Below are positions 16,551 through 62,185 of a stretch of 64,000 bases of DNA, one piece after another. The stretch is taken from NCBI RefSeq assembly GCF_023343835.1, contig NC_064444.1, positions 8,609,219 to 8,673,218 of the forward strand, written 5' to 3'. This DNA is from Lagopus muta. Its lineage: Eukaryota; Chordata; Aves; Galliformes; Phasianidae. The notes beneath the pieces are model-generated. The model was not told the DNA's origin. It saw only the letters and a list, made by a program, of their open reading frames with translations, and searched no databases. The position numbers and the translations under genes are program-made. Each line of letters starts with the position of its first letter. Position 1 is the stretch's first letter.

Positions 16551-19422
16551 CTAAAGCACAGATAAGTCATGGCAAGATTTAGATTTTGCTTTGAAAGCCA
16601 TCTTCTTGTTATTCTTTGCCACAATTCTCCCAAGAAATCGCTTTGCCTTTTTGCCTATGCTTTCTCTTCTTTTTGTGTTGGCCATTCTCCTGGCGTTGTC
16701 TTCTTTACTGTCTTTGCGAAGTCTGATTTGCCGAACAATACCTTCAAACAGGTCCTTGACATTATGATGAAGAGCAGCTGAGGTCTCAATGAACTTGCAG
16801 TCAAACACAACAGCACAGGCCCGTCCCTCTGAATGGAAAGAAAAGGGAGATGAGTGGAGACTGACATTTTCTCTTCATATGTTCTAGCAGGAAAAAAATG
16901 GGTTAGCTTAAAAAGAAAGTGTCTTCAACACCAAAGAGCTTTATTACACAGCAGTAAATTATATTTGCAGTCCTGGTTTTGTCCCCTTACTTTTCACTCT
17001 TTTGTTGTGGTGTGTTCAGAAATCTCACTTGACCAGCAATGCTGACTGTAAGGCAAAAATAGCCCTATAGGTAGACCATTCCACTATCATTTAAGATCTG
17101 TAGCTGATTTAAGGGAGGGACTTGATGCATGCTTGCTGTTCAATAGGAGAGACAGCGAGGTACAGAAAGAAGAGCTAGTTGCTGCTTCTTGTGGAAGTTA
17201 TTGAGCAATCAAAACCTCAGCCTTGCTGTAAGAAGTGAGAGTCTTCCACATCAGGCACAGATGAAGCTGATGCAGGTCAAAAGGTCAGGTCGGTATATAA
17301 ATTACAGCAGAGACCATAATGTTGCCAACTAATGGATTTGATTAGGACGGCATTCAAAACAGACAGTGCTGTGTCCCCAGTGTTCCAGGGGTAAACATGT
17401 AACCCTGGAACATTGCTGCATAGCAAGTTTCCATGTCCACCTCGTGGCCAGTAATGACAAAGCTGCCATCCTGAGTAAAACAATGTCACTTCTAGGACAG
17501 GTGAACTATGCACTGCCACCAGCCTGCAAAGAATGAGAATCTCCTGATGAACTCCAGTCAATTCCCTGAGCAGGCATTTAACACAAGAAGTATGCCAGAA
17601 CCAGACAGCAAGAAATGGTTCTTCAGCACCAAGACCACTATTCTTCCCAGGGGAAGGAAAAATAAATTTTAAATACATGAAATCAATACTTGGCAGTTGT
17701 TACTGTACTCAGTTGCTGAAATGCACAATGGAACAGAAAATTCTCACTGACCACAGCTGTGGATGACATACAAAAAGCCTGTATGAGCCTAGTGTCTCCA
17801 CCTCACCTCAAACGTGATGGAATCACTTCTAGAGGATTGGGCTGTACTGTTACTGTGGGATCACCATCAAAGACTGCCTGGCTTCTATGACGTGGCACTC
17901 CTGTCCCTTATGTAGGCTATCAAATCTTGAGACTAGCAACTGTGCAGTAAAACTCCACAGCTTCAGCCTTGTAGCTCTGAAGCTGTGTGCTTCCTGTACT
18001 GCAGTTCAGAGCCCAGCTCTATGTATGAGTCTTCCCTCAGTTTTCCATGGTCCCCAGTGTGAACCAGCTGGCTTGATTTCTCTGGTGTGCCTCCAGTCAT
18101 ACATTTTTCTACCTCAAACCCGGACCAGCTCTGTTGATTACGATCCTCTGCTGCCTTTGCTAGTAATAATTTAGACATTCTTATATAAATGAATAGTTTC
18201 TTACCATCGACTGAGACTTCCCGAGACCTGACCAGGTCACTCTTATTGCCCACAAGAATAATAGGAATGTCTTCTGTTTGTCTTGCTCTTCTTAGTTGGA
18301 TCCTTAGTTCAGAGGCTTTTTCAAAACTAACTTTGTCTGTCACTGAATAGACAATGATGTAGGCATCTCCCATCTTCATGCAGTGGTTCTGGAGCCATTG
18401 GCTGTCATCCTAAAACAAAAGGAGGCAAATAGATTTACTGCATTGAAAAAGATATTTGACACTGTCTAGTTAACGATTTAAGTATTGTGAACACCTGAAA
18501 GATACTTTTGTTAGCTTTATCTATTTACAAACAGCAAAAGTAAACCAGCCTACAAGAAGTTTTCTTAAAATCTTACTGTTTCTAGAAATAATACCAGGTC
18601 TGCACCAATCGGATCATCAGTCTCTAATTTTACAGGAATTCCCCAGGGCTGCCAATGTAAGCTTTATTCAAAGCACTGAGGGATTCGCAGCCCAAGCCTA
18701 GCCTAGCTTCTGAACTGCTTATCTAGCTACGAGAAATAATTGCAAAGCAGAATAAAGGCAGCATGATTTCCTTTCAATGCTATGCATCCGACAATAAGTA
18801 GCCAGACAGAGCCGTTCCATCGCTACATGTTTTTGGAGTAAACCGCCGACTGCTCCATAAAGAAAAAGTATCTTCGAGCTGCAAGTACCTGTTCCCAGAT
18901 ATCGAACACCACGAGAGACGCTTCTTCTCCATCGACCATAATCGATCTGTCGTACGTGTTTCCTGGAGGAAAGACAGTGCTCGTTAAAGCGCCGTCACCC
19001 CGCGCCCGGCCGCCCACCGCGCCCGTGCCGCTCCGGACTGGGAGCCTCGCACCGCCCGCGCCCTCACCGGCTTCCTCCGCCTCCGCGCCGTCCTCTACGC
19101 CGCCGAAGATGCGGGCCAGGCTGGTCTTGCCGACGCCGTGTTCGCCCAGCAGGATCACCTTGTAGAGGCTGCTGTCCGAGTCGCTGCCCGAGGAGATGAC
19201 GGAGTCGGAGGAGTCGGAGGCCCAGCTCTCCCGGTGCGCCTCGCCGGGGCTGTACGAGGTGCAGCGCACCAGGCCCGACAGCTCGTCCTGCGGCAGGGCG
19301 GCCCGCAGGTCCCGCTCGTCCACCGGCATGCTGCGCCGGTGCAGGTGCTGGTGTGCGGAGAAAGGCATGCTGCCGCGCCGCTTGTCCAGGTAGCGCAGCT
19401 TGTCTCCGCGGTTCAGAGTCAT
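16551..19422 (-). CDS. RRAD: RRAD, RGK-family GTP-binding protein RAD
   Basis: Four coding exons on the minus strand: 19422-19068, 18962-18889, 18409-18205 and 16828-16551. All introns are GT-AG, phases agree, and the sum is 912 nt (303 aa; human RAD is about 308). RAD is a Ras-like protein of the RGK group that binds the beta subunit of voltage-gated calcium channels and reduces their current; it also binds calmodulin and 14-3-3. Visible are the N-terminal HRRSMPVDERDL block (about residues 28-39), a Ser/Asp-rich stretch (68-85), the P-loop GEHGVGKT (93-100), the family's unusual G3 motif DIWEQ in place of DTAGQ (139-143), NKSD (198-201), ETSA (226-229) and the terminal RGK signature KSKSCHDLSVL (293-303). 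The long basic C-terminal extension before the signature fits membrane and calmodulin binding. The start is the first ATG after the 5' UTR acceptor and matches the conserved MTLN beginning. Nothing looks broken. Confidence 0.97.
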
Positions 19423-29183: not shown

Positions 29184-32100
29184 TAATGCACACCGCGCAT
29201 CGTTACAACCCGTGATCACATCTGAAGCTGTAAGCTGGTATTACTTTCAGCTATCCCATTTCTCTGTGTATCCTTTTCTGCATCACGCTGAGAATTTGTC
29301 TGTACCTTAACTTTATTTGGCTTGCAGAGCTGCCAGACCTTGTTTCACAGCTTGAGTGCAGCGATGCAGTCTGTGGCTGGGACACATCTCACACAGCAGT
29401 GCCAGGAGACCCAGCCAGGAAAACATCTTCCATGCAGCAGGGCAGTGCCTCTCCAGTTGTCCCTGTTTGTGGCAGCACAGGATCTGTGCATTGCTGCTTC
29501 TGTGGTACAGACCTGAATGCAGCTGATCAGGCATTACATCAGTCTTGGCAGCTTTCACACATGTACTTCCTCTCTTTGGCATGTTACTTTATTTGTATAT
29601 TCCAGAGTCTGTTCTGTGGGATTGTTTCCATTCTCTCTAGCTTGACCGAGCCACAATTCATCCTGTGTTGTCTTTTTCATCTTATCTTTCTTTGTGCTGA
29701 AACAGGAATTGTTCCATTAGGCATGCAAAAAAAAAACCCAACAACAACAACAAAAAAAACCACCCCAATATGTTTGCAGTCAGTAAAAGGCCCAAGCAGC
29801 TTTGAAGAGGATGAAGACCACAATATTCACAACAAAGTCCCTGCAGTTTTAAGGTTCAATAGAACATATTGCGAGCATTGAACTTGTATGATACATAGCT
29901 GATGTGTACAGATTAAAGCTAATACAATGTTTACTTTTCATTTGTAAAATTAAACAACTCAAATTTTTGCTAGGAATGGCCCAATATTCTTGTTACTAAC
30001 AATAACAACTATACAAATATGACAAGGCTTCATCGCTTATATGCTTATAAAACAGGAGGAAAAAAAAGAGTATGTTGGCATTAACCAATTTTTTCATGCA
30101 AGCATTGCAAACATCAGGGTTGATTTATTTGTTACTTTGCAGAAGTGATGAAAACAAACACTGCTGCTTAGGCACCTTCACAATCCTAAGACAGATCATG
30201 TGCCAGCTCTTCCATGAGCAAAATATAGAGAACTGAAGCTGTTGGGCATCCTGGTGTTAAGCAAACTGCTGACATTGTACTGAGGTTATTTTAGTCAAAA
30301 CCAAGTGAGAGGCATCTGATGGGAACTCAGATGAGATTAATTGGGTAGATTAAAGAAAAAAAAAAGCTACAATAAAACATCATCCCAAGAAAAATCAAAA
30401 TGGAGAGAACCACATACAGACAAGAGAGCTTGGCAGTCCTGGAAGACTTGCTGGTCTCTGAGGTTTTCCTGCTAGGCTGTGTAGGCACAACTGCTGTCCA
30501 CACTCACTGGCTGTTGCACTCCTTTCCAAAATCATGAGTACATCTCCGTTGGTCAAATTAAAGCATTAATTCTACATAGGTAATTGTTGTTGTCTCTTCT
30601 CTCTTGTTGCTTTTTGTGGGGAATGGACTTGGACTTAATGACAGTGAGACAACAAAGGCTTTCCTGTTTCCTGCTGCACTGTGAGGGAACTATGGGATGG
30701 GTTGTGTAATGACCCAGAAAGAAGGGCGGAGGGAAAACAAATCCAGGGCAGCACAGTGAGGTGTAGTATGGCCCTGCTATTTTCTTCTCTTTCTCTTATG
30801 CCTTCCCAAAACTCTTAAGATAGCAGCTGCTCTCCACTGCCATGTTACATTTATTCCACTGACTTGATGGAAATTAACTTTTGTCCTGCTCTCTCCTTCT
30901 AGCCCTGAGTGAGAGCTGAACTAATGGCAGGATTCAGAGACTTGAATCCAAGAGCACAGCCTTGTCAACTGAAACTTGTGTGTGCTGCAACAACTCGTGA
31001 AAAGCACTGAAATTGAAGAAGCTACTTGCAAATTATGCTGCTGCTCTGATGCATTTGTACATCAAGGTGGGATAGCAGGGTCTCCAACGGTTCAACCAAC
31101 CAGGATGTCCTTGTGACTGTAGACAGTGCTGTTCCTCTCACCACAAAGTTAAGCAATGGAGGTAACCTGCCACAGGATGCAAAAGCTCCTTACAGGTAAA
31201 ACATAAAAGAAATGCATGAACAGATGTTAAGAAATATGTAGAAAGTTTATAGAACTCAGTAGCATATATTCTGCAACTACTGAAACACTGAACAAAACGA
31301 GGGCTTTTGCTTCTTGTGTTTTGTGAAAATGTTATTTTCAGCATTTTCCTGAATGAAAAAAAAAGTCGTATGTTTTCTATTAAACATTGCTGGTAAATGG
31401 TTGTGAAATATACCAGCAGATTTAAACATTCTAGTCATAGCTTCAATTTCCTTTCTTTTTCCTCCTCTTTTTTGGTATTTTCCATAGAAACATTTGAAAG
31501 ATTTTGCTATATTAATTTTGTTTTAAGGAAAAAACTTGTGTGCTTACTCAGTCTGTATTTATGCCAAACAGTGCATTTCATGAGGGGGGAAGAGTGGTAC
31601 ACCTATCTGCTTGACAGGCTAGAGGGAAATGTTTTTAACAACTATAAAAAAAACTACTGTAAAGCGTGTTATAAATCAATGCTCCCAAGGGAGATTCTTA
31701 TCAAAGCACTTAGTTGTTACAAACACATCAATCTTAAGTACAGTTGGAAAACTAAAATAACTTCTTTTTTAATTAACTGTTGCCAACGTGTAGCACACAT
31801 CACTCCATGCAAGGAAACACAAGAAATATTGTCCACTGAAATGCCAAGCTCTTCTTGTCACTTCTTCCAGGAAGAGATCAGTAACATTTCTGGATACGAA
31901 ACCGCTGAGCTGCTTTGTAGCCACTGATAGTGAATTTGGGAGTTTGAGTCTTCAGAAGTTGCAGATACTGGGCAGCAATGACAGCACGAGAGTAGCTAGA
32001 AAGAAGTCTGTTTCCTCCCAGGAAGTAGATGTGTGCGTGCAGGCCCGAGTATGTGCAGAGCAGCAGAGCCTGAGCCACACAAACTGTGTTGGTCTGCTGG

Positions 32101-33729
32101 CTCAAACACAAGGCAGGTTACTCCAGCATGCAACACAGCCAGCGACCCTAGAGAGGTTTTGTCACAGTGTTTGTAGATTAAGAGGAATTAACGCCATTCA
32201 GTCCTCCTGGAGGACTCTTCTCAGAGCCTAGGAGTGTGAAACAGATGTCTGCTTCTGGCATTTTTCCTGGACTTGAATGCGACTGTATTCCATGCAGCTG
32301 CTCTAAAGAGCCATATTTTGATGAAATGTGTCCTATTACAAAGCACTGGAGAGACTAAAGTTAGGGGGCTTTTTTGAGGGGGGAGGAAATGGGGAAAGAG
32401 CAGTCTGTGAAGAAACACTTGTAACAAATTAATGTTTTCTTCTCCCACTTACTCTTCGTACATCAGGCCCTAGATGGGGATCATTAAAGCTGGAAGATTT
32501 TTGCTGAAAGAGGCAGAACATCAGCATTCAGAAAGTACTCAAGCTGAGGGAGCCCATACAGAAGGAGCTGCGATCTTCAGCCCAGTAACAACGGTTTGTC
32601 CCTTCTGTTGTTTCTCTCACCTAATTAATGTAACTTCCACATCATTTAAAGAAACATACCAGATCCAAAGGTATGAAATTAACCATTCTTAAGTAGCAGG
32701 AGTCAGACCTTGGTTTGACACTGTAATAAAGTCCCTTTACTGAAAACTCACCTCTGAAATATGTACTATGAACAACCTAACCACATACTGTTGCTTCTCT
32801 GAAAAAGTAAGCAGTGCAAAGTGCACCCATAGGATTACTGCGTAACATGGCTTGTAAGACAAGTGCTAACATCCAATAAATTATTTGTTACTATGTAGTG
32901 GTGAATGCTAAGAAGCAGATTAAATAAAGTATAATTTACTAATTCCTTCTCTGTTTCATACATAGGTTAAAGCACATCAAACATCTGTTTGCAGCCTACT
33001 CATCTTTCTATTACCCCCCATATTTGCATTCCTGTCTTCCACAAAATCTGGAAGGACAAGTTTCATTTTACTATTAAAAATAAAAAAAAACCAAATCAAT
33101 ATCAAGCATATTGCTTATGAGTTGCTTTTACATACTGCCAGAGCTGAAGTGGTGCAAAGGCTGGCAGTGTCAGGACTGATCAGTTCAGTGATTAGGCCTG
33201 AGAGACAAAGAGCATATTAGCAGGTGTGTCAATCTACTCCTTTATTAGCATTAATTTTACACAAATATTATTTTTATTTCCAGTTTCATTCAAACATCAA
33301 ACCAAACGCTCATTATTCGAAGGATGCTAATCAAATAAGCAAATAAACGCTGCTGAAGAGTTGGCCTTCTACAGAAGCTCTGTGCATACTGGGTGAGTAA
33401 TTTCTAAAATGAGTAGATTTGGATTTGCTGCTGTTCTGTTTTCTTGTATATGTGAACTTCACCATTTCACTTGGTTTACCACTGCCTTAGTTTCCTGGCA
33501 ACACAGACTAGCCTGTTCCAGCAGGCTGTGGTGTCTACATAATGTCCTTCATAAGGTTTACTGTTTCTGAAATAGCATCTGAGATTATCCAATACAAAAT
33601 ACTGAAACGTAAAGCATCACTATCACACATCTAACTAACAAACAAAAAAAAACCCAACCAAGAACTCTATACTAATTACTCTGTAAATAACTGATAAACG
33701 TACTACATAGCTGATACATAATTGTATAT

Positions 33730-34626
33730 ATCAGTTTGCTGATGATACGAAGTTGGGAGGATTGGCTGACATGCCTGAAGGCTGTGTTGCCATTCAGCAA
33801 GACCTGGACAGGCTGGAGAGCTGGGCAGAAAAAAACCGGATGAGGTTTAACAAAAGCAAGTGTAGAGTCTTGCATCTGGGGAGGAATAATGCCATGCACC
33901 AGTACAGGTTGGGGGATGACCTGCTGGAGGGGAGCTCTGCGGAGAGGGACCTGGGTGTCCTGGTGGATGACAGGTTGGCCATGAGCCAGCAGTGTGCCCT
34001 TGTGGCCAAAAAGGCCAATGGCTTACTGGGGTGCATTAAAAAGAGCGTGGCCAGCAGGTCAAAGGAGGTGATCCTCCCCCTCTACTCTGCCCTGGTAAGG
34101 CCTCATCTGGAGTACTGCGTCCAGTTCTGGGCTCCCCAGTACAAAACAGACAGGGATCTCTTGGAAAGAGTCCAGCGGAGGGCCACAAAGATGTAAAGGG
34201 CCTGGAGCATCTCCCCTATGAAGAAAGGCTGAGTGAACTGGGTCTGTTCAGCCTTGAGAAAAGAAGACTGAGAGGGGACCTGATCCAGGTCTATAAGTAT
34301 CTAAGGTGTGGGGGGCAGAATGGCGAGGCCGGACTCTTTTCAGTGGTGAGTGGAGACAGGACAAGGGGAAATGGCCAGAAACTGCAGCACAGGAAGTTCT
34401 GCACCAATGTGCGCAAGAACTTCTTTACAGTGAGGTGACGGAGCACTGGAACAGGCTGCCCAGGGAGGTGGTGGAGTCTCCTTCTCTGGAGATGTTCAAG
34501 ACCTGCCTGGATGCCGACCTGTGCGACCTGCTGTAGGGAACCTGCTTTGGCAGGGGGGTTGGACTTGATGATCTCTGGAGGTCCCTTCCAACCCCTACAA
34601 TTCTGTGATTCTGTGATTCTGTGATA
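33730..34626 (+). mobile_element. 5'-truncated CR1 LINE (end of RT plus 3' UTR)
   Basis: The element opens exactly at the reverse-transcriptase FADD motif (FADDTKLGG), which is followed by the CR1 blocks [41 protein letters not shown] and WAPQYK up to about 34196. The 3' UTR follows, ending in three ATTCTGTG units. The frame is open from the truncation point to a stop at 34194, but the usual continuation past RRATKM is out of frame, so the copy is dead. Truncation at the 5' end is the normal outcome of CR1 insertion. It lies about 1 kb past the CIAO2B 3' end. Confidence 0.95.
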
Positions 34627-35628: not shown

Positions 35629-36985
35629 TTATGATCTAGCAGACAAACACTGATTTACCACTTCCAGTAAGTGAGAGTTTTCCAAAGCAGCTGCTACACG
35701 TTCTTTATCAGCAAGCTGTTTGTTAACTGCACAGAAAAAAATACCACAAGGAACTGGTCAAAATATTGGTACAAGAGGTCTTTTTAGAAGCACTTTACTG
35801 TGAGACTAATAGTCTCAGTGTTGCTGTGGTACTCAGCTAAAATAACTCCACAGATGCTAACTATATCACAAAGCTGTGGTCTAAAGTCAAAGACGGCACA
35901 TTAGCAGATCTCAAACCAGTAAGTTATTTATAATTCAGCAGCAGGAAGTTATGCATGTGTATGTGTAACAGGAGAGGAAATTTACCTCCTGCCTCCCCCC
36001 TCTTTCTGTGCCTTCCAGGTAAAGCAATGACTATTTGACAGCACAGGCTATCCAAGGAAACATTTCATCTAAGACACTGAGTACTTCTAAGTTTTGTTAT
36101 TACACATTCCTGTTCTGTAACATCTCCCAGAAGGGGCTGGTTTGTGTACAGTCCCAGATGTTAAACAGCTGATCTGCAGGTGGAGGAATCTATCTTCTCT
36201 CTAATTTTTGGATTAATAAAAGAAAACCACACAACAGAGCAATAAAACACTTACCTGCATGTTCAGAGGCATGTGTTCCTGGTGTTATATGAACATCCAT
36301 CTTAAAAAGTATGGAGAAAGAAAAAGGAGACAAGTCAACAAAACACTGGAAGCTCAAAGTATTTAATTAAGAAAACAGCAAAACAAAGCAACAACAAAAG
36401 ACATTCCTGGCACGGACAGATGCTGTACCAGCAAGAATAAAACCAAGCCCAAAAGAACACCACATTTCCACCTGCATAAGCCTCCTTCAGGCAGAGGGCT
36501 AAAGCACTGCCATCTCCTTCTGTGCCCTCATGCCTTCACACCACAACCCCAATCAGCTGCGATGCCACCAGCACAGAACTGCAGCTCTGCTCTGCTAGTT
36601 TAGTTCCTTCCTCAGCCTGGAGCGTTTCCCTCCTCCATAATGTGGAGCAAAAAGTTTTAGTTGCTTCTGAACACCATCCATCTCTTCTGCTTTCCAGAGT
36701 GACTTTACTACTCACCTTAAACCTCTCGGGCAGTGATCTGATCAGTTTCACTTTTATGGACAGGCCGATTAGCGTTGCCATGCTGCAGTGCGGGATGGTG
36801 GGTGTGAACTCCACTGCCACGGTGCTCTCGGCATCGTTCACCTGTTGGAAAACAAACCAACAGGTTTGTTGCCGTGCCCTGCCTGCAGCGCTCCATGCAC
36901 AGCACTGCTCGGGTTTTCTTTGCTGAGGGCTTAAAGCACTATGTTTAAATGCAGTAAATTCACATAATACACTTCTTTTCACGGT

Positions 36986-37021
<36 letters not shown>

Positions 37022-37366
37022 TGAACAAACAAAGAGGAGAAACAACAACAACAACAGCAAAAATAAGATAGTCTCACTTTAACTCGAACTTGCTCGACGA
37101 CATTCAGCTCCTCCAGGGTCAGAGGATGCTCGGGGTCGTTAATGGAGCGGATGAGATGTGCGGCGTTAAGGAAAGCGGGACGGAGGCCGCCCCCCCCTAC
37201 CCCCGCCCGCCCTCCCTGCCGGCAGGATATCGAAGATCTCCCGGTCGTCGATGGAGTCGGGCAGCTCGTCGTCCTCCTCCCGCGCCGTCACGGGCCGCTC
37301 CCCCGAGCGGCGGTAGATGAGCGGGTTAGCGTTCTCCAGCGGCACGCCGCCGCCCGGGCCCACCAT
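35629..37366 (-). CDS. CIAO2B: CIAO2B (MIP18/FAM96B), cytosolic Fe-S assembly component
   Basis: Five coding exons on the minus strand: 37366-37231, 37157-37078, 36841-36716, 36300-36255 and 35726-35629. They sum to 486 nt (161 aa; human 163). CIAO2B works with CIAO1 and MMS19 in the CIA targeting complex, which delivers iron-sulfur clusters to cytosolic and nuclear enzymes such as DNA polymerases and helicases. The start MVGPGGG is followed by [18 protein letters not shown] (11-28), the acidic [10 protein letters not shown] segment, [20 protein letters not shown] (52-71) and the core [20 protein letters not shown] with the conserved, reactive Cys at 91. The C-terminus is [10 protein letters not shown]. 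Introns 2-4 are GT-AG; intron 1 is not (see separate entry). The start sits in a CpG island and the orientation is divergent to the esterases, as in the human CIAO2B-CES2 pair. Confidence 0.97.
36989..37017. repeat. Poly(A)/poly(T) run of 29 nt
   Basis: Uninterrupted A run on the plus strand, lying as poly-T in CIAO2B intron 2. It is likely to vary in length and to be error-prone in sequencing. Confidence 0.9.
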
Positions 37367-40288: not shown

Positions 40289-45881
<5,593 letters not shown>

Positions 45882-46206
45882 TTTACTGTCTAAACATGCA
45901 TAATAGGCATAGTATTTAGGATCGCAAAAGGAATTATGTAAAATACTTTTGAGGACAAAATAACGTGTCCCTTCCTTTCACCTTTTCTTTGCAGTTCTCC
46001 TATTTACCCTTATTGGCTGTAATTAGGGCAGTGGATCGATTTCCACTTTGTGACCCTTTGCTTTTCCCTCAGTTCCCTCTGTGTCCACAAGAGAAGCCTC
46101 CCCTATTAATACAGTTAACAGATCTGTCTGCTCCTCAGGCTTTGCTGCAGCTTTGCCATTGCTGAGGAAGAATCTGGCAGCAATGTTGTGTTAATCGAGT
46201 TCAATC

Positions 46207-46212
46207 AATAAA
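46207..46212 (+). promoter_or_regulatory. Polyadenylation signal after the decayed esterase
   Basis: AATAAA about 325 nt past the stop of the last exon at 45881, in a context repeated exactly in the duplicated arm. Confidence 0.5.
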
Positions 46213-47601
46213 GAGGTGTTTTGCAAGTAAAACTGTCTTTCTCGTGTCAGAGATACGTGTGATGCTCCTGAGGTTTTGGTCTGATTCACACACAGAAATG
46301 TCCTCTGAGCTTTTTAAGGACAGTTCTGTTGTGTGACTGAGTTTTACAACTGAGATAGCAGTACATTTCTGACGGTTGCAGTACCTCGTCTGGAGCAGTG
46401 GTGCAGTGCTGGACTTCAGATTGCTCGTAGATCTTAGGAAAGGAGAGAAACAGTCTCCGCTGCCCTGAGCTTCTTTCTCTTTAATGAGCAACAACTGCCT
46501 CAGAAGGATCAGGCGTGGTAGCATTAGCTTTGTGCTTTCTGTGTTTTCCATGGTGCTTTATTTACACGGCGCTCTAGGCTGCGCTCTGTGCCGTCTCTCA
46601 GTCCCAGTGTCTCTTAGCACTGGGTCACAGGCCTTCATTGCTGGCACTGGAGAGAGACTTCATTTACCGGAATTACTCCAGCGCCCATTTCAGCTTGGAC
46701 TGCCAAGAACAAGCCTGGATCGCAGCATTTCAGCATTGCTTCTCATGTGTTACTCTGAGGCTGCTCCAGCTGTGCCAGCCGTCTTGCTGACCATTCTGCT
46801 ACCTTCCAGCAGCATGGTGCAGCTATGTGGAAGGTATGGGCGCTGCTCCTTTCTTTCCTTCCCTTGCCTGTCTTTAATCTCCCTTCTGTAGCTCTGCAGG
46901 AATGTAAGATTGTTCCCAGCTTCTCATATCCTACTGTTACTCTCCGGCCATCTCTTCTTTCTGAATTAAAATAAAACAACAAACACCTAAATAAGGAAGC
47001 GACCCCTCTTTAAATACAGATTTCTGAACATTTCTACCCTATAGAGTTGAATCCAAATGTCTTTGTGGGCTCTCTTTTAGCTATGTGCCCATAAACATGA
47101 GGCTTGTCTCTATTTTTCAGCGATTGAAATCAAGACAGGTAGCAGTGCATTAGGGTGCAGGAGGCATTGTTCACTGATTGAACGTAAACTGCAAAATGCT
47201 CTCCATTAAAATGAAATGCCAGGCAGCATCCAAGAATTCCACTTCCCAGGTATGTAGCACTGTTTCCAGATTCCACTATTTTAGTTTATGCCACTTAGAG
47301 TAAGGGTCTCCACATTTGCAGACGTCTAAGTCCAGTTGCTAGATCCTTCGGCCTGGTAGGCTTGGTAGCCAAGGTGGTAAAGATCTAGGTCCAATCTGTT
47401 TATTTTATTACGTGAGTGAGATCAGCAGAGTGTACAGATAGCGTTTGCACAAGGAGTAATTTCAGCATGGCAGCTACCTTTGGCTTCAAGTTGGATATCG
47501 ATGTGGATGTGGATGTAGGGCTGAGACATTTTGCAGGATGTGCACATGAGCAGAAAAAAGAGAGTGCAACTGTGAATACAGAAGATATACTGAAATATTT
47601 G

Positions 47602-51900: not shown

Positions 51901-54900
51901 CCACATCAGGCATTTAAAGAAGTCTGTTCTTTCTTTCTAGCACTGGGGATAGGCATGCTCGTGGTAACTGGGGGTATTTGGACCAAGTGGCAGCTCTTCA
52001 GTGGATTCAGGAAAATATCATACACTTTGGAGGAGACCCGGGATCTGTCACCATCTGTGGTGAATCTGCAGGGGGAATCAGTGTATCTGCTCTGGTAAGT
52101 TCACCACAGGCAGGAATGTTTATTATTTGAGAAAGAAACCCACTGTCCACGATCACTCTCAGTACATTAATGAAAAATCAGTGAGAAAACGTGGGTGGCT
52201 TTTGGGTAAAGCACACATCACCTCAGTCTGATACACAGCTGATAACAGTGCAGCTTCTGGCTGTTGAAAGTGTTCTTTTTGTACCCAGATGATGTCGCTT
52301 AGAATCCCAGATGTCGTTTGTCCTCTTCAAATTTGAATGTCCGTTTGCTCCCGACTTCTCTCTTAGAGCTGTATTTTCCCCTTCTGCAGCACAGCCAGTC
52401 TGTTGGACATCTGTGTACCTGATTCATACCTGGCTTGCAGTGTTGTTCCCTGAAGTCTTGTAAGCAAAGCTTTATGGGAGGGGAAGGGCAGGCGTGGATT
52501 TATCCCTGTTAATGCTGCCAGAGACCTTTGCACAGCAGAACTCTGATCAGAGGCCACAGAGTAACACTCGGGTGACATTTTTTTCAAAAAAGGCAGTTTC
52601 TGATATTGAAGTCCTGTGTCATGAATAGAATGCATTTCCAGTAATGCCTGTTCTTGTTTCTGGATGCTGCTGCTTTTTTCCAGGTCTTATCTCCACTGGC
52701 AAAGGGCTTGTTCCACAAGGCCATTTCAGAGAGTGGTACTACAATTAGGGCTTTATTCACTGAAAAGCCTGAGAAGGAAGCACAGGTGGGTATTTTGCGG
52801 CATATTTAATGTTTGAGATAGTCTTGAACGTCTTAAATGCTTTATTCCAAAAAGTGGATCTAGATTTTTTTTTTTCTTGTGGAATTTCAACCACCTTCAT
52901 TAGAGACAGGATTCCTGTTTGCAGTAATACACGCTGGGTGATACTTTGCTTTCCAAGTACTCAAATATTCCCAGATGTCTGAGTGAAAGCAGAATATCGA
53001 GGAAGCAGAGGGAGAAGGCAGTGAATGAGTATGAAATGTACAGGAGTATACTGTCTTCAGAAAAAGTTGAGCTGCTGTTTTTGACAGGAAAATGGTACCA
53101 AATCCAAATACTGTTCTCTTTCCCTTCCGCCTGGTGCCCGATGTGCTCAAAGGAACAAAACTTTATTTAGCCTGGTTATAATTAAAAAGAAGAGCCCAAT
53201 TCAACCCAATTTGTCACGTGTAAGAAACAATCTCCAAGAGCTTTGTTTTGCTAATCTGGGATGTAAAAGAGGCAGCGTTGCAATGAAAAAGTTCTTCCTT
53301 ATGTCTAATCTATACCTCCTCTGATACTACTTGCAGCCATTACCCCGTGTGCTGCTCGTTGCCTAGGAGAAGAGGCCAAATCCCTCTTCACTACAGCCTC
53401 CCTTCAGGAAGTTGCAGAGTGCTATGAGGTCTCCCCTGAGCCTCCTCTTCTCCAGACTGAACAATCCCAGCTCCCTCAGCTGCTCCTCATAAGACTTGTG
53501 CTCCAGACCCCTCACCAGTTTCGTTGCCCCTCTCTGGACACGCTCCAGGACCTCATCATCTTTCCTGTAGTAAGGGGCCCAAAACTGAACGCAGTACTCA
53601 AGTTGCGGCCTCACCAGTGCTGAGTAGAGGGGGATGATCACCTCCCTGCTCCTGCTGGCCATACTATTTCTAATGCAGGCCAGGATGCTGTTGGCCCTCT
53701 TGGCCACCTGGGCACACTGCTGGCTCATGTTCAGCCGAGCATCAACCAACACCCCCAGGTCCTTCTCTTCTTCACAATCATCCAGCCACTCATCCCCAAG
53801 CCTGTAACGCTGCATGGGGTTGTGCCCAAGGTGCAGGACCCGACACTTGGCCTTGTTGAACCTCATCCTATTCATCTCAGCCCAGTGATCCAGCCTGTCT
53901 AAATCCCTCTGAAGGGCCGCCCTACCCTCAGGCAGATCGACACCACCTCCCAGCTTGTTGTCATCTTCAAACTTACTGAGGGTGCACTCAATCTTCTCAT
54001 CTAGGTCATCAATAAAGATATTAAACAAGATAGGCCCCAGTACTGAGCCCTGGAGGACACCACTTGAAAGGGGCACCAGCTGGACTTAACTCCATTCACC
54101 ACTACCCACTGGGCATGGCCCTCTAGCCAGTTCCTTACCCAAAGAAGTATATACCTGTTCAGACCATGGGCAGCCAGTTTCCCCAGAAGAAGCCTGTGAG
54201 AGATTGTGTCAAAGGCTTTGCTGAAGTCTAGGTAGACTGCATCTACAGCCCTTCCCTCATCTACCAGACTGGTCACCCAGTCATAGAAGGAGATGAGGTT
54301 GATCAAGCATGACCCGCCTTTCACTAACCCATGCTGGCTGGGCCTGATCCTCTGGACAGTGCACACATGCCGTGCAGTCTCATCCAAGATGATTTGCTCC
54401 ATAACTTTCCCTGGTACTGAATTCAGGCTAACAGGCCTATAGTTCCACAGATCCTCCTTACAGCCCTTCTTGAAGATGGGAGTCACATCGGCAAGCCTCC
54501 AATCCTCTGGGACCTCACCAGTTAACCAGGAGTGCTGATAGATGACCGAGAACGGCTCAGAAATCACTCCTGCCAGCTCCCTCAGCACCCAAGGGTGCAG
54601 CCCATCCGGTCCCATGGACTTGTGACAGTCCAGATGGAGGAGAAGCTCTCTGACTGTCTCCACGTGAATCGCTGGGGGCATATTCTGAGCAGCATCCCAG
54701 ATTTCCAGATCAAGGCATAAAAAGCCCAGATAACTGATCTGGCTATTAAAGGCAGATGTAAAGCCAGACCTCAGCCCTTCTCCTTGTCCTCAGTGGACAC
54801 ATTCCCTGCTGCATCAAGCATAGATGAGAATTATCTTTGGTTCTTCTTTTGCCATTGATATATTTATAAAAGGGTTTTTTATTGCCTTTTACTGCAGCGG

Positions 54901-60142: not shown

Positions 60143-60908
60143 TGAGATATATCAAGTTTTCTCTACACTTTTTCTTCTTTTATTACTGTCGTTTTCACAG
60201 TAGTTCATAGTCTGTTTCAAAGTCTGTGCCAGCTGAATTATTTCCTTTTACTGCCGTGATCTTTGAGCAGTCTAGCTGTGCTGTAAAAAGCATGAATTAA
60301 TCTGTTACCGGAGTCTTTTGATTTAGCTTACATTTTGCATCTACTTTTTAATATCCTTATTATAATATTACTTATAATATCCTGCTCTTAGAGGTCAACT
60401 AGGGAAGGCTGTACACTTCTCTTCCTTTTTTCTCAAATTTACAAGGAAAGCACTGTAATAGCAGATATTCCTTGTGATATGTTGAGGTGTATTTACATCT
60501 GGTCATACATGTAACTGATTCTAAGGGAATATTCTCGAAACTTTGAAGCATGGAATTCCATCCTCTTGTATCAGAAAGAAGAAACCTTTGCCTTGTCATG
60601 CTCAGAGCAGAGAATTTCAGTCCCACAAAGCTGGGATGAGATCTATGGAACTAAACGACGTGGCCTGCTTCCTCAGTTGTAGTGGCACTCAGGAGACAAG
60701 GGTTTGTTTATTGATTTATTGGTTGTGCTTCTGGTTTCCTGGAAGGATGCAGGCAAATCCTTTCACTTCCTCGGACCTCAGTTCCACTGCCTGTAGAATA
60801 ATTATGCTGATCTTGTTCGTCAGCGGTCCTGAAATCTTCTCTTGATGATTTCTGGATTGCTAAATTGCAAATTTCAGGCTTTTTCTCTTTCTTTCTTACT
60901 GTTTACAG

Positions 60909-61098
60909 GAATCCTAATGGGGAAGGCCTGGCTGAATGGCCATTGCGTAATCTAAATGAAGAATGCTTGGAGATAAATCTAAGACAAAGGAAAGCCAGAA
61001 AGCTGAAGGAGAAGAAGGGAGACTTCTGGGAAAAGGTGATGTTTGAAAAGCCAACTAGGAAAAGAATGGGAAACAAGAAAGCTCATCTAGAGCTATAA
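60909..61098 (+). pseudogene. Duplicated esterase terminal exon (orphan, open)
   Basis: Second copy of the decayed gene's last exon, encoding 62 residues from NPNGEGLAEWP to NKKAHLEL, identical in translation to the copy at 45692-45881. It has a good acceptor (TTTACAG) and starts in the phase left by exon 13 of the intact gene (GG|G). No other exon of its own gene is recognisable upstream; the duplication begins inside the preceding exon. It is either a passive remnant or an alternative last exon for the intact esterase 2.3 kb upstream, which would swap the HTDL tail for HLEL. Confidence 0.8.
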
Positions 61099-61423
61099 TT
61101 TACTGTCTAAACATGCATAATAGGCATAGTATTTAGGATCGCAAAAGGAATTATGTAAAATACTTTTGAGGACAAAATAACGTGTCCCTTCCGTTCACCT
61201 TTTCTTTGCAGTTCTCCTATTTACCCTTATTCGCTGTAATTAGGGCAGTGGATCGATTTCCACTTTGTGACCCTTTGCTTTTCCCTCAGTTCCCTCTGTG
61301 TCCACAAGAGAAGCCTCCCCTATTAATACAGTTAACAGATCTGTCTGCTCCTCAGGCTTTGCTGCAGCTTTGCCATTGCTGAGGAAGAATCTGGCAGCAA
61401 TGTTGTGTTAATCGAGTTCAATC

Positions 61424-61429
61424 AATAAA
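61424..61429 (+). promoter_or_regulatory. Polyadenylation signal after the duplicated terminal exon
   Basis: AATAAA in the same context and at the same distance as the signal at 46207-46212. Confidence 0.5.
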
Positions 61430-62185
61430 GAGGTGTTTTGCAAGTAAAACTGTCTTTCTCGTGTCAGAGATACGTGTGATGCCCCTGAGGTTTTGGTCTG
61501 ATTCACACACAGAAATGTCCTCTGAGCTTTTTAAGGACAGTTCTGTTGTGTGACTGAGTTTTACAACTGAGATAGCAGTACATTTCTGACGGTTGCAGTA
61601 CCTCGTCTGGAGCAGTGGTGCAGTGCTGGACTTCAGATTGCTCGTAGATCTTAGGAAAGGAGAGAAACAGTCTCCGCTGCCCTGAGCTTCTTTCTTTTTA
61701 ATGAGCAACAACTGCCTCAGAAGGATCAGGCGTGGTAGCATTAGCTTTGTGCTTTCTGTGTTTTCCATGGTGCTTTATTTACACGGCGCTCTAGGCTGCG
61801 CTCTGTGCCGTCTCTCAGTCCCAGGGTCTCTTAGCACTGGGTCACAGGCCTTCATTGCTGGCACTGGAGAGAGACTTCATTTACCGGAATTACTCCAGCG
61901 CCCATTTCAGCTTGGACTGCCAAGAACAAGCCTGGATCGCAGCATTTCAGCATTGCTTCTCATGTGTTACTCTGAGGCTGCTCCAGCTGTGCCAGCCGTC
62001 TTGCTGACCATTCTGCTACCTTCCAGCAGCATGGTGCAGCTATGTGGAAGGTATGGGCGCTGCTCCTTTCTTTCCTTCCCTTGCCTGTCTTTAATCTCCC
62101 TTCTGTAGCTCTGCAGGAATGTAGGATTGTTCCCAGCTTCTCATATCCTACTGTTACTCTCTGGCCATCTCTTCTTTCTGAATTA

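Follow-up and report, generated by a model that had tools for sequence, protein, structure and literature searches.

Intron 1 of Lagopus muta CIAO2B as a probable minor-class (U12-type) AT-AC intron

The first intron of the CIAO2B gene of Lagopus muta is, with a probability that we put at about 95%, a conserved minor-class (U12-type) intron with AT-AC ends, orthologous to intron 1 of human FAM96B. It lies in the 64,000-nucleotide stretch of contig NC_064444.1 that was analysed as a whole and is called the window here (Table 1). Of the known intron classes, only U12-type AT-AC agrees with the protein as well as with the motifs, and the family protein is given by the AT-AC cut alone among these classes. 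The intron is not new as such, because a U12-type intron is already established at this place in the human orthologue.

The CIAO2B locus and the splice joins

The coding region of CIAO2B is complete on the minus strand, with five exons between 35629 and 37366 that encode 161 residues. Chains of galla-2, which we take to be the fly CIAO2B, align with 156 of the 161 residues of the spliced protein (236.7 bits, E 9.7e-70), while FAM96A chains match the same protein more weakly (134.5 bits). The FeS_assembly_P domain (PF01883) is present at 46.7 bits. Both the closer similarity to CIAO2B/galla-2 than to CIAO2A and the presence of this domain point to membership in the CIAO2B (MIP18) family.

Table 1. 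Features of CIAO2B and of the first intron of CIAO2A. Positions are those of the window, except for CIAO2A.
Feature	Position	Strand	Length	Remarks
CIAO2B exon 1, coding part	37231..37366	-	136 nt from ATG	ends ...GAG ATC TTC G
CIAO2B intron 1	37158..37230	-	73 nt	AT-AC, phase 1
U12-type 5' splice site ATATCCT	37224..37230	-		7/9 consensus bases over ATATCCTGC
G-run stretch fitting a four-run quadruplex pattern	37190..37216	-		intron positions 15-41; pattern only
Branch motif TTCCTTAAC	37165..37173	-		intron positions 58-66
Intron 1, 3' terminal AC	37158..37159	-
CIAO2B exon 2	37078..37157	-	80 nt
CIAO2B intron 2	36842..37077	-	236 nt	GT-AG
CIAO2B exon 3	36716..36841	-	126 nt
CIAO2B intron 3	36301..36715	-	415 nt	GT-AG
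CIAO2B exon 4	36255..36300	-	46 nt
CIAO2B intron 4	35727..36254	-	528 nt	GT-AG
CIAO2B exon 5 through stop codon	35629..35726	-	98 nt
CIAO2A intron 1	C13:651046-651568		523 nt	GT-AG, starts GTGACTGG

Intron 1 splits the Asp codon of the sequence REIFDLIRS after its first base. Joins from the ATG to the end of exon 2 with a donor at least 30 nt past the ATG and an intron of at least 20 nt were tried (n = 26,335); 7,948 of them were open and in frame, and joins were scored against a stretch of galla-2. The top score of 218 belongs to the AT-AC cut, together with two slides (TA-CA and AT-AT) from which the same mRNA results, so that a cut with AT and AC as terminal dinucleotides yields the correct protein. 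Shifting the 73-nt cut by a few bases lowers the score to 211-216 and alters one residue.

A competing explanation would place the exon ends elsewhere, around an intron with GT-AG or GC-AG ends, or would start the gene with a different first exon. Nothing of weight speaks for it: of the joins tried from the ATG to the exon 2 end, 6 of the 20 GT-AG and 40 of the 166 GC-AG leave the frame open, but the best scores in the two sets are 125 and 163, respectively, against 218, and none gives the family protein within these limits. The amino end of galla-2 is matched by exon 1 itself, which argues against another first exon, and we regard this explanation as very unlikely. An earlier note on this DNA had proposed an AT-AC intron of 73 nt, and its coordinates proved exact on the minus strand. 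Its claim that GT-AG and GC-AG ends are unworkable and that AT-AC ends restore the family sequence likewise holds over this span, and the GT-AG join giving the conserved protein that it had named as counter-evidence did not emerge from the 20 joins.

Could the gene instead contain an assembly error, or be a pseudogene that merely appears to be spliced? The intron is rich in G runs and is therefore difficult to read. However, the five exons all have open frames and follow one another in the right order, and three of the introns are ordinary. When the genome (1.03 Gb, 165 contigs) was searched with the CIAO2B protein, seven places were found (nine candidates scored), namely the five exons at the locus and two places on the contig that carries CIAO2A, and no second CIAO2B copy was among the places listed. 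Such an artefact is thus extremely improbable. A six-frame Pfam search of the whole genome for FeS_assembly_P gave nothing above threshold, probably because the domain is divided among exons, which the protein query did find.

The window has other contents. Downstream of CIAO2B and on its strand (-), Ras-family exons (PF00071) are located at 16554-16874 and 17966-18409; by synteny with human 16q22 they are presumably those of RRAD. Open frames at 33711-34193 (+), for which no Pfam match was found, and at 53366-54789 (-) resemble pieces of reverse transcriptase, and we take them to be CR1-type LINEs. Two further stretches on the plus strand, 45317-46888 and 60525-62105, lie about 15.2 kb apart and have nearly identical ORF starts (GNILE.., ASF.LMSNNCLRRIRRG..), which suggests a segmental duplication or a repeat.

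U12 signals and the minor-spliceosome RNAs

Intron 1 opens with ATATCCTGCC, which begins ATATCCT, and closes with TTTCCTTAACGCCGCAC, which ends in CAC. At its start stands a U12-type 5' splice site of the form (R)TATCCTTT; compared with the consensus ATATCCTTT, used as printed in the part of PMC2846911 drawn on here, it deviates at +8 and +9. Near the 3' end, the branch motif agrees with TCCTTAAC at 9 of 9 positions and ends 7 nt before exon 2. The pair of signals described in the earlier note, ATATCCT at the 5' end and a U12 branch site, is thereby borne out. Its distance of 8 nt from the branch site is right for the second A of the motif, but these 8 nt include the terminal AC rather than preceding it, and for the first A the distance is 9 nt. 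This spacing of 8-9 nt is tight, falling below the optimum of 11-13 nt given in the available text of PMC3584512, and together with the two deviations from the 5' site consensus it counts against the U12-type reading.

In the window, [A/G]TATCC followed 20-130 nt downstream by TTCCTTAAC occurs once; of 150 windows simulated with a first-order Markov model, one contained the same arrangement. If the cut is taken as given by the protein and the base composition as that of the intron itself, ATATCCT at the start and TTCCTTAAC in the last 40 nt would coincide with a probability of about 2e-11. Elsewhere in the window, at 29268-29327 (+), there is a second U12-like set, GTATCCTTTT followed by TACCTTAACT and then AG, a possible GT-AG intron of 60 nt. 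The open frame around it has no Pfam match, a comparable pair was present in 2 of 150 simulated windows, and the set is possibly due to chance.

The class cannot be told from AT-AC ends alone (PMC3584512, in the portion cited above), and introns with such ends are also removed by the major spliceosome, as in sodium channel genes. For intron 1 of CIAO2B we consider a major-class (U2-type) origin highly improbable. The U2-type AT-AC introns of sodium channels all have a G at +5, as stated in the accessible part of PMC2831892, whereas intron 1 has a C; moreover, it carries a full U12 branch motif near its 3' end, and the human counterpart depends on U6atac, according to the sections of PMC4010461 at hand.

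Genes for the minor-spliceosome RNAs U12 (149.7 bits), U11 (106.6 bits) and U6atac (five matches, the best at 132 bits) are present in the same genome; in the 64,000-nt window Rfam gave 0 matches at gathering scores. The GUAAGGAA of the U12 gene is the exact complement of UUCCUUAC, that is, of the branch motif minus one A. In a U12-type reaction, U11 would bind ATATCCT, to be replaced by U6atac, and GUAAGGAA of U12 would pair with UUCCUU(A)AC; the one A left bulged would be the nucleophile. Removal of the intron would join G/AT and so restore the Asp codon of REIFDLIRS. We infer that the same intron ends are used in Lagopus muta RNA.

Intron length, folding and retention

If intron 1 were retained, translation would run into a stop within the intron, so that no CIAO2B would be made from the transcript, which would be open to nonsense-mediated decay; such decay may follow. 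The stop in the retained frame is a TAA at 37168-37166, within the branch motif, and exon 2 ends 88 nt further on.

The G+C content of the intron is 74%. Its predicted fold (-41 kcal/mol, z -1.81) is matched in stability by 10 of 200 shuffled sequences and pairs the TTCCTT of the branch motif while leaving AAC open. This pairing could weaken splicing and is a further point against the U12-type reading. The high G+C content, the fold and the G-run pattern are suggestive, but no more than suggestive, of a slow intron.

The earlier note had placed 73 nt near the lower working limit, which is untrue of the class, as the minor introns of Blastocystis have a mean length of just under 42 nt (PMC10639083, available text). 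The genome was also searched for short U12-like introns with the pattern RTATCCTT, 25-55 nt, TTCCTTAAC, which yielded 18 matches, while the reversed control pattern yielded 20, hence no enrichment. All 18 were inspected for two features, an AC or AG within 25 nt that could serve as the intron end and a joined frame that stays open across flanks of 90 nt, where stops close to the outer edges were tolerated. Six had no fitting end and five had an open frame (L010, L012, L013, L024 and L027). L024 (C15:9198557, 66 nt, GT-AG), the one match examined further, has flanks in which no clear coding sequence was seen. Because other short U12 introns were not confirmed among the 18 matches, no length limit can be set from the Lagopus muta genome. 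Intron 1 of CIAO2B is a compact natural test case of how short and G-rich a vertebrate AT-AC intron can be.

Comparison with CIAO2A, human FAM96B and other bird introns

The protein search of the genome located the exons of CIAO2A on contig C13. The first intron of CIAO2A interrupts the aligned Asp codon (EVY-D-IIR versus EIF-D-LIR) in the same phase (G/AT) as that of CIAO2B, but it is a GT-AG intron of 523 nt with a pyrimidine-rich end, and none of the four patterns searched for the U12 branch motif was found in it, in contrast to the short AT-AC intron of CIAO2B. In this one genome, the likeliest explanation appears to be a shared ancestral intron whose class changed in one of the two genes; two separate insertions at the same codon are less likely. 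The expected direction of such a change is from U12 to U2, and AT-AC introns undergo it less often than GT-AG introns do (PMC2831892, in the part available).

Could the two sister iron-sulfur targeting factors then be gated by different spliceosomes? This would be the case if the intron predated the split of CIAO2A and CIAO2B and one copy had switched class. In birds, the intron of CIAO2B would in addition be a retention-prone brake: falling minor-spliceosome activity would cause retention of intron 1 and slow the output of bird CIAO2B. The brake is suggested by the very short, G-run-rich intron and its tight branch-to-end spacing; the combination as a whole we consider doubtful.

In human cells, FAM96B intron 1 served as a control and substrate of the minor spliceosome in work from 2014 (PMC4010461; here and below, the sections at hand). 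A U6atac morpholino raised the unspliced form and lowered the spliced product, whereas retention of the intron did not increase under a U4 morpholino. For human cells, the connection of CIAO2B with minor-spliceosome activity that the earlier note suggested is therefore on record. Whether the intron is catalogued, which that note could not say, is answered for human, where it is known as FAM96B intron 1. In literature searches, FAM96B paired with U12 led to PMC4010461 alone, and paired with minor spliceosome to the same paper and a breast-cancer paper (PMC12564160); no paper was found for CIAO2B with U12 or with minor intron, or for FAM96A with U12.

The reverse primer for the unspliced form in PMC4010461 reads ATCTTCGATATCCGCCGCT when reverse-complemented, and the window has ATCTTCGATATCCTGCCGG. 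The junction ATCTTCG/ATATCC and the AT start seem to be common to human and bird, provided that ATATCC in the primer is human intron sequence, as we infer; at the 5' end of the intron, the comparison with human that had been proposed beforehand thus gives agreement. At +7 the printed primer implies a G in human, whereas the window has a T. Conservation in chicken extends to about 94% of human minor introns (PMC10639083, which cites earlier work), and AT-AC introns make up 18% of the U12-type introns in chicken (Table 2 of PMC7367187) and 26% in human (same source, both in the text available). From these figures an AT-AC intron in bird CIAO2B is to be expected.

With the U12-type AT-AC introns of birds, intron 1 of CIAO2B has in common the AT-AC ends, the U12 5' splice site, the branch motif and a short gap from branch site to intron end; it differs in that this gap is shorter than the 11-13 nt optimum. 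Judged by sequence, this iron-sulfur assembly gene has kept in a bird the minor-class intron known from human, with the same junction and the same AT start.
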